A stretch of DNA of 13,013 nt. It comes from Nitrospinota bacterium. Lineage in GTDB: Bacteria; Nitrospinota; Nitrospinia; JACRGO01. A program made the translations under genes and the position numbers. Where the stretch lies: contig JACRGO010000229.1 of the NCBI GenBank assembly GCA_016212295.1, positions 1 to 13,013 of the forward strand, written 5' to 3'. The notes below the pieces were generated by a model. That model was not told where the DNA came from, searched no databases, and saw nothing but the letters and a program-made list of their open reading frames with translations. Positions 1-3,077 of the stretch are shown here, in pieces. Position 1 is the stretch's first letter. Each line of letters opens with the position of its first letter.

Positions 1-213
1 AATATCATAACGGCCTGTAAAATAGCCATGCCTGTAAATGAGCATAAGCATGGAAGGTGAAATTTTTACAATTTTTTTATCCAATAAAAAAGAATACCTT
101 GTTGATTTAAAAGACTTTTTCTTATTTATGCGTAGGCTCTCTATATTAAATGACCATTTCGGCCATTTCTGTTAAACCTGAATTTTTCATTTAAAAAAAA
201 ATAAAACCGTTTC

Positions 214-229
214 CGTGACAATTATCACA
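214..229. promoter_or_regulatory. CRP-type operator, near consensus
   Basis: The sequence reads CGTGA, six bases, then TCACA. It differs from the CRP consensus TGTGA-N6-TCACA only at the first base. It lies about 62 bases before the first gene of an operon whose third gene encodes a CRP/FNR-family protein with a CRP-like recognition helix. If the site acted as a class II activator site centred at -41.5, transcription would start near 263 with TAGCAT (251-256) as the -10 element. That promoter placement is inference; the palindrome itself is seen directly. Confidence 0.6.
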
Positions 230-291
230 GACAGAACATAAAATTTGAATTAGCATGGGAGGGCCATAAGGCACAAAGTGGATGAAAATCA

Positions 292-1140
292 ATGAACATC
301 AATAAGTTCCAAGCAAAAGAAGAAAACGCCCTTCCAAACGCGGTTTGTGCCCAAACCACTCAAAAGACCCTAAGTTTAATCATAAGCCAATTGAAAAAAG
401 ATAGACTATATAATGTAAATGTCATCGCTTCCATAAAAAAAACCTTGCCGGACATTAATAAAACCATTCGCCAGGGAAACCTGAACTGTAATTGCCTGGT
501 TATGAAGGTTTTAGCTGGAAAAATTGTGAAAACGGAGAAAGAAGTCTTAAAAAAACAAATCCAAGGCAAGAGGAAAGACCACTTCACCAGGTTATTTTTA
601 ATGCCGTTGGAGGAAAAAATCGTAAAAGGGGACAGTTTGGAGATAGCCCCCGAAAAAATCCCGCGAAGCATAATCCCCGTAATTAATAAGGCTGTGAAGC
701 GGATAGTTCCCCATAGTTTGATAGAAAAAAGCAAAGTACTGACAGATAAAATTACACTTTTTCATACGGGCATGGGCAAAGCGCGTGATGCTGATTGGGA
801 ATCCATTGCCAAGGATTGGGAAACCGCCCAAAAGATAATAAATTTTTTTAAAAAAGAAAGCGGCCATATTGATTGGAGAGAGGTCCATAATATCTGCCCG
901 ACCATGCGCAAGGATAAAATTAAAACAGTTAAACTGAAGAATCTTATTGAACTTCGCGAAGCCAATGAACAAATATTAAGGAATTTATTAATGGAATTCA
1001 CTAACCCTGAAACCGGGAAATTCAGCTTGCTCAAACTCAAAGGACTTATCCATGAACACCTTATGAAGGAAACGGGACTTGACCCTGGAGAGTCCATCAC
1101 AGAGAAAACTGGCGCTTTTTTATTAAAGGCATTGTCATGA
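292..1140 (+). CDS. Hypothetical protein, first gene of RR/CRP operon
   Basis: This 282-residue protein is lysine-rich and apparently soluble, and I do not recognise a family. It has no signal peptide and no convincing membrane segment. Predicted helical stretches dominate, especially the charged C-terminal half (about residues 165-260). A few cysteines (for example the NCNC near residue 66) form no recognised metal site. The start at 292 lacks a strong ribosome-binding site; the ATG at 282 is in another frame and stops after seven codons. Its stop overlaps the next gene's start as ATGA (1137-1140), which indicates translational coupling to the response regulator. It could be a partner or output protein of that regulator, but only gene order supports this. 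Base composition looks more A/T-rich than the mutase gene downstream. Confidence 0.8.
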   Translation: MNINKFQAKEENALPNAVCAQTTQKTLSLIISQLKKDRLYNVNVIASIKKTLPDINKTIRQGNLNCNCLVMKVLAGKIVKTEKEVLKKQIQGKRKDHFTRLFLMPLEEKIVKGDSLEIAPEKIPRSIIPVINKAVKRIVPHSLIEKSKVLTDKITLFHTGMGKARDADWESIAKDWETAQKIINFFKKESGHIDWREVHNICPTMRKDKIKTVKLKNLIELREANEQILRNLLMEFTNPETGKFSLLKLKGLIHEHLMKETGLDPGESITEKTGAFLLKALS

Positions 1141-1691
1141 ACAAGGACAAAATCTTGATAGTTGATGATGATCCCCATGTAAGCAAACTGATGGGCAGGG
1201 TCCTTCAAAAGGAAAACTATGATACGGTGTGGGCTGAAAACGGGAAAAAGGGGCTGGAACTGATTGAATCCGAAAGTCCTGATCTTGTCATTTTGGATTT
1301 GACGATGCCAGAAATGAGTGGAGAGGAAATGTTGGACTTATCCCTTAAAAGCCACCCTGAACTGCCGGTAATAATAGTCACCGCCTTTGGTTCCGAACAG
1401 AAAGCGGTAAAACTATTGAAAGGGGGCGCCGTGGATTATCTTCGCAAGCCTTTTAATGTGGACGAACTGGTTATCAAGGTGCGTGAATCCATAACCGCCG
1501 AGCGCCTGCTCCTCCAAATGGAAAGGGCGGCGGAAAATCCCTATGGCGCCCGCCATATTTTCCTGGCCTTTACCGCCACCTTGATAGGTTCCATCATCGG
1601 CCTTTATCTTTCTCTTTGCTACAGCCTGAATTTCCATGATGGTTTTCTGGGGCTGGCGGCTTATTTTTTTCCCGGCAAATATGTCCATTAA
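1137..1691 (+). CDS. Response regulator with C-terminal membrane segment
   Basis: Residues 1-120 form a receiver domain with the acidic pair D10/D11, phosphoacceptor D54 (in LDLTMPEMSG), T82 and K104 in the KPF motif. After a short linker the protein does not continue into a DNA-binding or enzymatic domain. Instead, residues 141-163 are strongly hydrophobic (HIFLAFTATLIG onward), followed by a further partly hydrophobic tail to residue 184. It is therefore predicted to be a membrane-tethered receiver, an unusual architecture. The start overlaps the preceding stop by four bases, and the 3' end overlaps the CRP-family gene by 11 bases, so the three genes are probably one transcript. No cognate kinase lies in this operon; the histidine kinases at 6006 and 8291 are possible donors. 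A frameshift that removed a larger output domain cannot be excluded. Confidence 0.88.
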   Translation: MNKDKILIVDDDPHVSKLMGRVLQKENYDTVWAENGKKGLELIESESPDLVILDLTMPEMSGEEMLDLSLKSHPELPVIIVTAFGSEQKAVKLLKGGAVDYLRKPFNVDELVIKVRESITAERLLLQMERAAENPYGARHIFLAFTATLIGSIIGLYLSLCYSLNFHDGFLGLAAYFFPGKYVH

Positions 1692-2346
1692 GCAAAAAAT
1701 CCTGGCTTCAACTCTTTTTTCCACCCTCAGCGAAGCGGAAATAGAAAGCATTGCTTCAGTTACAAAGACCAGGATATATCCGAAAGGGGCCATGATCATC
1801 GGCCAGGAGGAACATGGAAGCGCTCTGTTCATTATTGCAAAAGGCTCTGTAAAGGTTGTATTGTTCGGGGAAGATGGGGGCGAAACCATTTTGGCAACCC
1901 TGGAAAAGGGAAATTTTTTTGGAGAAATGGCCCTTTTCGGCGATATGCAGAGGTCCGCCACCGTCTATACCGCGGAAGAAACAGAACTTCTTGTAATTGA
2001 AAAGGGGGACCTCCTCAAGCTGATAAATAAATTCCCGGCCATTTCACTTTATTTCCTGAAGGAGCTTTCCAATCGGCTTCGCAATACGGATGAAAGGATT
2101 GAATGCATTACCCTCCTTGATGTTTACCACCGGGTCATTCGCGTTATATTACAATACGCAAAAGCCAAGGGTATTTATGGCGCGGAAGAAATTGTAATAA
2201 ACAATCGTCCGAGCAACCAGGAGATCGCCAACATGATAGGCGTTTCCAGGGAAACGGTATCAAGGGTGATGAGTTCCCTGGCCAAGGCAGGGTCCATCAG
2301 CGCCAACGGAAAAAAGCTCGTTATCAGAAAAACACCCGTGAAATAG
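1681..2346 (+). CDS. CRP/FNR-family transcriptional regulator
   Basis: This is a 221-residue regulator with a cyclic-nucleotide-binding-like β-roll (about residues 5-120), a dimerisation helix (about 122-148) and a winged helix-turn-helix (about 170-215). The phosphate-binding-cassette-like segment GEMALFGDM...RSAT (G81, E82, R91, S92) resembles cAMP-binding members, so a nucleotide ligand is plausible. There is no N-terminal FNR-type cysteine cluster. The recognition helix VSRETVSR has R190, E191 and R195 in the same spacing as R180, E181 and R185 of E. coli CRP, which predicts TGTGA half-site recognition. A matching site lies at 214-229. I chose the ATG at 1681 over the in-frame ATG at 1636 because the latter adds an atypical hydrophobic leader and a larger overlap with the response regulator; neither has a strong ribosome-binding site. 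Confidence 0.9.
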   Translation: MSIKQKILASTLFSTLSEAEIESIASVTKTRIYPKGAMIIGQEEHGSALFIIAKGSVKVVLFGEDGGETILATLEKGNFFGEMALFGDMQRSATVYTAEETELLVIEKGDLLKLINKFPAISLYFLKELSNRLRNTDERIECITLLDVYHRVIRVILQYAKAKGIYGAEEIVINNRPSNQEIANMIGVSRETVSRVMSSLAKAGSISANGKKLVIRKTPVK

Positions 2347-2480: not shown

Positions 2481-2516
2481 TTGACATCCCTCCCTTATTG
2501 CGGCTAAAATTTAGCC
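2481..2516 (+). promoter_or_regulatory. σ70-type promoter with leaderless spacing and operator-like palindrome
   Basis: A perfect -35 TTGACA (2481-2486) is followed after 18 bases by TAAAAT (2505-2510), a 5/6 match to the -10 consensus. Standard spacing places the transcription start at about 2517, the A of the downstream ATG, so the mRNA would be leaderless. There is no Shine-Dalgarno sequence. A perfect palindrome, GGCTAAA-A-TTTAGCC (2502-2516), covers the -10 box and abuts the start codon; it could be a repressor site. Confidence 0.6.
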
Positions 2517-3077
2517 ATGAATAAAGCCTTTATCATTATCCTGTCTCTTGTTTTCCGCACCATGTATCCTTCCGCGAATGTCTTTGCCGTGGAAGTCGCC
2601 CCTCGCATATCCGACAGAGAGATTGTTGAAAAACTTGCAAGGTTAGAGGAAGGACAGAGAGCCATTCAGCAGCAGATCAACGATCTCAGGGAATCCACGC
2701 AGCAGCAGATCAACGATCTCAGGGAATCAACTCAGCAACAGATCGGCGACCTCAAGGAATCAACTCAGCAGCAGATCAGCGATCTCAAGGAATCAACCAA
2801 CGACCTCAAGGAATCCACTCAACAGCAAATTAATGATCTCAAGGAGTCAACTAATAAAAGATTTGATGTTATCCAATGGATGTTGGGACTTTTTATTACT
2901 GTTGCCCTTTCCTTGATGGGGATTATGGGACGGATACTCTGGAACCAGCAGAAGAAACTAACCCAGATAGAAACCTCCCTTGAGGCGCAGAAGGAGGAAC
3001 TTTCGTTTCTGAAATCCCTCATCGAGAAGCTCCAGGCCCTCATCGAAAAACTCCTCCCGCCAAGAGGCGTATTATAA
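2517..3077 (+). CDS. Signal-peptide, hendecad coiled-coil membrane protein
   Basis: This 186-residue protein starts with a probable signal peptide (cleavage after VFA, residue 24; the arginine at 14 is atypical). A coiled coil follows (about 33-117) that includes near-identical 11-residue repeats at 51-112. Then comes a membrane helix (about 119-142, IQWMLGLFITVALSLMGIMG) and a second amphipathic helical segment (143-180). The repeats have I and L in positions that give an 11-residue (hendecad) period, typical of a right-handed coiled coil. The likely topology is a periplasmic coil anchored in the inner membrane with a cytoplasmic tail. The function is not recognised; a structural or scaffold role is a guess. 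It is transcribed from its own promoter, and repeat units could vary in number between strains. Confidence 0.82.
   Translation: MNKAFIIILSLVFRTMYPSANVFAVEVAPRISDREIVEKLARLEEGQRAIQQQINDLRESTQQQINDLRESTQQQIGDLKESTQQQISDLKESTNDLKESTQQQINDLKESTNKRFDVIQWMLGLFITVALSLMGIMGRILWNQQKKLTQIETSLEAQKEELSFLKSLIEKLQALIEKLLPPRGVL
2667..2852 (+). repeat. 33-bp tandem coding repeats (11-residue units)
   Basis: Five full units and one shortened unit encode QQQI(N/G/S)DL(R/K)EST. The fifth unit is only 21 bp (NDLKEST); it lacks the QQQI codons and keeps the reading frame. The first two units are nearly identical in DNA, the later ones more diverged. This suggests expansion by slippage or unequal recombination. 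Confidence 0.92.

Follow-up and report, generated by a model that had tools for sequence, protein, structure and literature searches.

The DNA analyzed here, a stretch of 13,013 nucleotides referred to as the window, is one whole contig of a MAG from the class Nitrospinia (3.74 Mb, 90.5% complete). It carries a near-consensus CRP-type operator candidate upstream of three overlapping genes, the last of which encodes a CRP-type regulator that retains the residues for reading such a site (Table 1). We propose that the gene 3 protein binds positions 214-229 and controls its own three-gene operon, with class II activation as the likely mode, and we give this explanation as a whole an even chance of being correct. 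In the proposed mechanism, of which binding, ligand, operon transcript and sign of regulation are predicted from the sequence, the gene 3 protein would act as a cyclic-nucleotide-responsive CRP-type dimer that contacts the operator through R190, E191 and R195 and, once bound, would control transcription of the three genes. With TAGCAT as the -10 box, the operator would be centered at about -41.5, which corresponds to class II spacing, and autoregulation would be positive at high cAMP or cGMP. The membrane-tethered receiver and the gene 1 protein would simply be co-expressed with the regulator.

Table 1. Features of the candidate operon, its upstream region and the promoter of the following gene (window positions).
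Feature	Position	Strand	Remarks
Promoter block with one homologous copy in the genome (C127:4248-4373), operator identical	198-289	+	91% identity over 198-260, 92% over 265-289
CRP-type operator candidate CGTGACAATTATCACA (CGTGA-N6-TCACA)	214-229	none (pseudo-palindrome)	one mismatch to consensus
Sigma-70-like promoter match GTGACA-N18-TAAAAT	215-244	+	10/12 matches; -35-like hexamer inside operator
Alternative -10-like box TAGCAT (TAN3T)	251-256	+	21 bp after operator; class II spacing
Gene 1, uncharacterized protein of 282 aa, probably all-helical	292-1140	+	no family match
Gene 2, receiver domain and C-terminal membrane helix, no DNA-binding output domain	1137-1691	+	Pfam 1.4e-30
Gene 3, CRP-type regulator: cNMP-binding domain and Crp helix-turn-helix	1681-2346	+	G81-E82, R91-S92, R190/E191/R195
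Promoter match TTGACA-N18-TAAAAT for the next gene (2517-3077)	2481-2510	+	11/12 matches, strong

The original prediction had described a site one base from the CRP consensus ahead of a three-gene overlapping operon that ends in the regulator, spanning 214-2346, and both parts held. The candidate CGTGACAATTATCACA has a single mismatch to TGTGA-N6-TCACA, the 15-mer TGTGATAATTGTCAC is a perfect match on the minus strand, and the ATG of gene 1 follows 62 bp downstream. Genes 1 and 2 overlap by 4 bp and genes 2 and 3 by 11 bp, in agreement with the coordinates given earlier. In the 148-bp intergenic region 5' of the operon, a match with at most one mismatch is expected 0.004 times; over the whole 13-kb window, three matches with at most two mismatches were found compared to 3.8 expected, which is unremarkable. 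Binding of the regulator to this site ahead of its own operon is a plausible prediction that these observations support. Autoregulation by the gene 3 protein is not to be assumed from homology, since in Yersinia pestis, whose CRP is highly similar, no autoregulation was detected (PMC3050693).

By its architecture, gene 3 falls within the CRP type of the CRP/FNR superfamily, with an N-terminal cNMP-binding domain and a C-terminal Crp helix-turn-helix, and all of its Pfam matches are over the cut-off (PF00027, 4.4e-24; PF13545, 1.8e-13; PF00325, 1.2e-8). Its recognition helix reads S189-R190-E191-T-V-S-R195, and alignment to R180, E181 and R185 of E. coli CRP bore out the earlier claim that R190, E191 and R195 are equivalent to the DNA-contacting residues of that protein. 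R180, E181 and R185 are the main DNA contacts of CAP, and RE(T/M)VGR is the recognition-helix motif of the main Crp cluster (PMC10127613); the corresponding RETVSR of gene 3 retains Arg, Glu and Arg, with Gly replaced by Ser. The residues for the cyclic-nucleotide phosphate are likewise retained (G81-E82 and R91-S92-A93), and the genome encodes four class III cyclases. Because the equivalent of E. coli CRP S128 is Asp, the ligand is uncertain. Gene 3 scored 130.9 bits against NF008732 (cAMP-activated global regulator CRP), far under the curated cut-off of 266, and we therefore describe the protein as CRP-like and do not file it as a CRP equivalog. An additional in-frame ATG lies upstream, at 1636.

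Only two proteins of this MAG pass the Crp helix-turn-helix cut-off, namely gene 3 and the CRP-family protein C80 (L025:3925-4614). Both belong to the same family at 35% identity, but C80 represents a separate lineage that is found class-wide (45-53% identity among members). Its helix reads SSETFTR compared to SRETVSR in gene 3, so that in this genome Ser takes the place of the first recognition arginine, the equivalent of R180; its relatives read SRET or TRQT, and the DNA specificity of C80 may have changed. In contrast to gene 3, the C80 gene has no site upstream and no receiver gene adjoining. Judged by these residues, no confident CRP-type protein of this MAG other than the gene 3 product retains the Arg-Glu-Arg reading set, and as C80 lacks the first recognition arginine, gene 3 would be the better candidate reader of the site.

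Across the genome, near-consensus sites were found to differ in location from weaker ones. Counted on either strand, 8 of 13 distinct TGTGA-N6-TCAC sites are intergenic, compared to 3 of the 28 remaining GTGA-N6-TCAC sites (Fisher p 0.001, or 0.003 when the duplicated pair is taken as a single site). As evidence for function this preference is moderate, because genes were called simply as open reading frames for the intergenic assignment, and among the eight sites the one at C199 falls within a short frame that is doubtful. The GTGA-N6-TCAC core as such occurs 41 times in this genome compared to 15 for the reversed control, and 49 times compared to 5 in G010, a genome without a close relative of the gene 3 regulator. 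Since relatives that have no close homologue of the regulator show an equal or larger excess, we regard it as a background property and dropped it as support. The perfect 16-mer TGTGATATAGATCACA is common to both genomes of the genus, which suggests that CRP-type sites may be in use within it. In the genus relative it is located downstream of one CRP gene (G001:C409, L108:3487-3503) and precedes a gene for a small exported-looking protein; in this genome it occurs at C43 (L013:4157-4172) as the reverse complement, and the genes downstream are unrelated to those at G001:C409. C43 harbors two tandem CRP-type sites. An extended promoter motif in common with C43 (AAATTTGnATTA after the site) is not claimed, as shuffles equaled its score in 257 of 5000 cases; patterns related to it were found as single occurrences in 11 of 39 other genomes.

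The comparison with relatives included one genome of the same genus, the only one found, which is itself a MAG. The three-gene operon was not found in any relative examined, and the closest CRP among them is no more than 37% identical to gene 3. Homologues of gene 1 are present in this genome (C95, 37% identity) and in the genus relative, which has one at 41% and a further, distant one; they are absent from 98 other genomes, and a scan of species genomes returned the genus relative only. No receiver and CRP pair adjoins the gene-1 homologues at C95 and C32, and no site with at most one mismatch was found ahead of nine comparable genes, of which seven encode other CRPs and two are gene-1 homologues. 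The distant gene-1 homologue (G001:C372, L028:234-4873) is flanked by a receiver gene on one side and a PilZ gene on the other, with a chemoreceptor adjoining, and this neighborhood would fit a signaling role for the gene 1 family. For a distant gene-1 homologue, an EcsC match was weak and under the cut-off, and we did not rely on it.

The promoter block that contains the operator has a counterpart at C127, where window positions 198-260 pair with C127:4248-4312 and the alignment resumes from 265-289 at C127:4349-4373. In this region (L014:3748-4400, corresponding to C127:4248-4900), a start-less fragment comes after the block and resembles, by eye, the small subunit of a NiFe-hydrogenase; next in order is a hybrid histidine kinase carrying two receivers and an Hpt. 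The C127 copy has CAAAAT in place of TAAAAT at the -10 position, with loss of the first T, and TAACCT at the class II offset, where TAN3T is retained. The identity of the operator between the two copies may be explained by duplication and not by selection; in relatives, no match to the block above background was found. Further upstream, window positions 1-143 are the terminal part of a dispersed repeat. Over 20 near-identical copies of this repeat were found, almost all of them located where contigs end, and it probably broke the assembly. The repeat was also considered as a mobile element carrying the promoter, a candidate that we rejected: it stops some 70 bp short of the site, and beside its internal copy no transposase was found.

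Both signs of regulation appear compatible with the upstream region, in which the operator overlaps a -35-like hexamer, in line with repression, and stands at class II spacing to TAGCAT, in line with activation. TGTGA-N6-TCACA sites with TAN3T about 22 bp downstream follow a rule described for cyanobacterial SyCRP1-type regulators (PMC2633013), and TAN3T is found at the class II offset in the window and at C127, C43 and G001:C409. The class II reading was made post hoc, and we favor activation over repression weakly. Negative autoregulation, in which the regulator bound to 214-229 would cover the -35 hexamer GTGACA (215-220), block RNA polymerase and thereby limit operon expression, seems possible to us but doubtful. 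It would agree with the best promoter match of the upstream region having its -35-like hexamer within the operator, and with the findings that CRP acts as a repressor at sites overlapping the core promoter and that the crp gene of E. coli is both repressed and activated by its product (PMC3050693). On the other hand, it is the first T of TAAAAT that is altered in the C127 copy and the class II TAN3T that is retained, and promoter-like matches upstream of the operon are not enriched over shuffles (8 compared to 4.6 expected, sd 2.1), a difference that is not significant alone.

We consider it unlikely that the site is due to chance or is a by-product of duplication, the block 198-289 having been copied from or to C127 with no selection on the operator. 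The start-less fragment beside the other copy implies that duplication and rearrangement happened there, matches with at most two mismatches are expected several times in the window as given above, and no comparable gene in relatives carries the site; yet a match as close as this one is rare in the intergenic region, the operator is identical between the copies although their flanks differ (with few changes to judge by), and an intergenic location is more frequent among near-consensus sites than among weaker ones. Another reader of the site, either the C80 protein or a regulator missing from the MAG, which would leave the operon regulated and not autoregulated, is decidedly improbable: the incompleteness of the MAG (90.5% complete) and the membership of C80 in a CRP lineage common to the class speak for it, but C80 has SSET without the first recognition arginine and no further protein passes the family cut-off. 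The reading of an autoregulated operon put forward in the original prediction has gained a predicted reader, as the sole confident CRP-type protein with Arg-Glu-Arg, and a class of near-consensus sites that are mostly intergenic, and autoregulation itself stands as a candidate only. The link from phosphorelay input to the regulator that had also been envisaged is speculative and rests on gene adjacency and on the distant gene-1 homologue beside a receiver gene. We regard as highly improbable the extended version, in which the receiver and gene 1 would control the CRP-type regulator post-translationally, joining phosphorelay and cyclic-nucleotide signals, and the autoregulated circuit would also drive the C127 hybrid kinase through the copied promoter.

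The gene 3 regulator and its candidate operon share several features with E. coli CRP and autoregulated crp genes, namely the domain architecture, the Arg-Glu-Arg set and a TGTGA-N6-TCACA-like site ahead of the transcription unit that includes the regulator gene (PMC3050693). In contrast to E. coli CRP, to which it is only 32% identical, the gene 3 protein carries Asp for S128, and unlike autoregulated crp genes, gene 3 is the last in a three-gene operon, behind an uncharacterized protein and a receiver. Cyanobacterial SyCRP1-type proteins are likewise non-proteobacterial CRP-type regulators with TGTGA-N6-TCACA and TAN3T about 22 bp on (PMC2633013), a likeness in motif and spacing only. The arrangement is common in kind; the present instance belongs to a lineage-specific operon, one of whose proteins is uncharacterized. 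CRP autoregulation is already established, and the general view of CRP-type regulation would stay unchanged. If the proposal is true, a cyclic-nucleotide regulator would be identifiable in one uncultured Nitrospinia lineage, together with a predicted motif and a few candidate targets, and an output-less receiver as well as a lineage-restricted protein family would come under CRP-type control.

The two genes ahead of the regulator also conformed to their earlier description as an unrecognized protein and a membrane-tethered receiver. Searches with gene 1 against Pfam, NCBIfam and PHROG gave no significant family, and its AlphaFold model is all-helical at low confidence (mean pLDDT 41.6). In gene 2, the receiver domain is followed by a hydrophobic helix at about residues 140-162, and Asp54 is the probable phospho-acceptor. 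The membrane tail of gene 2, HIFLAFTATLIGSIIGLYLS (window positions 1539-1688), recurs in the tandem-receiver protein C173 of the same genome (L120), and a tail of this type is also found in single-helix proteins of 48 to 54 residues that adjoin PilZ-like genes in another genome (L116, L121). The strong promoter match behind gene 3 would be consistent with the operon ending there. The next gene encodes a coiled-coil protein with the internal repeat QQQINDLKEST and a C-terminal membrane helix.
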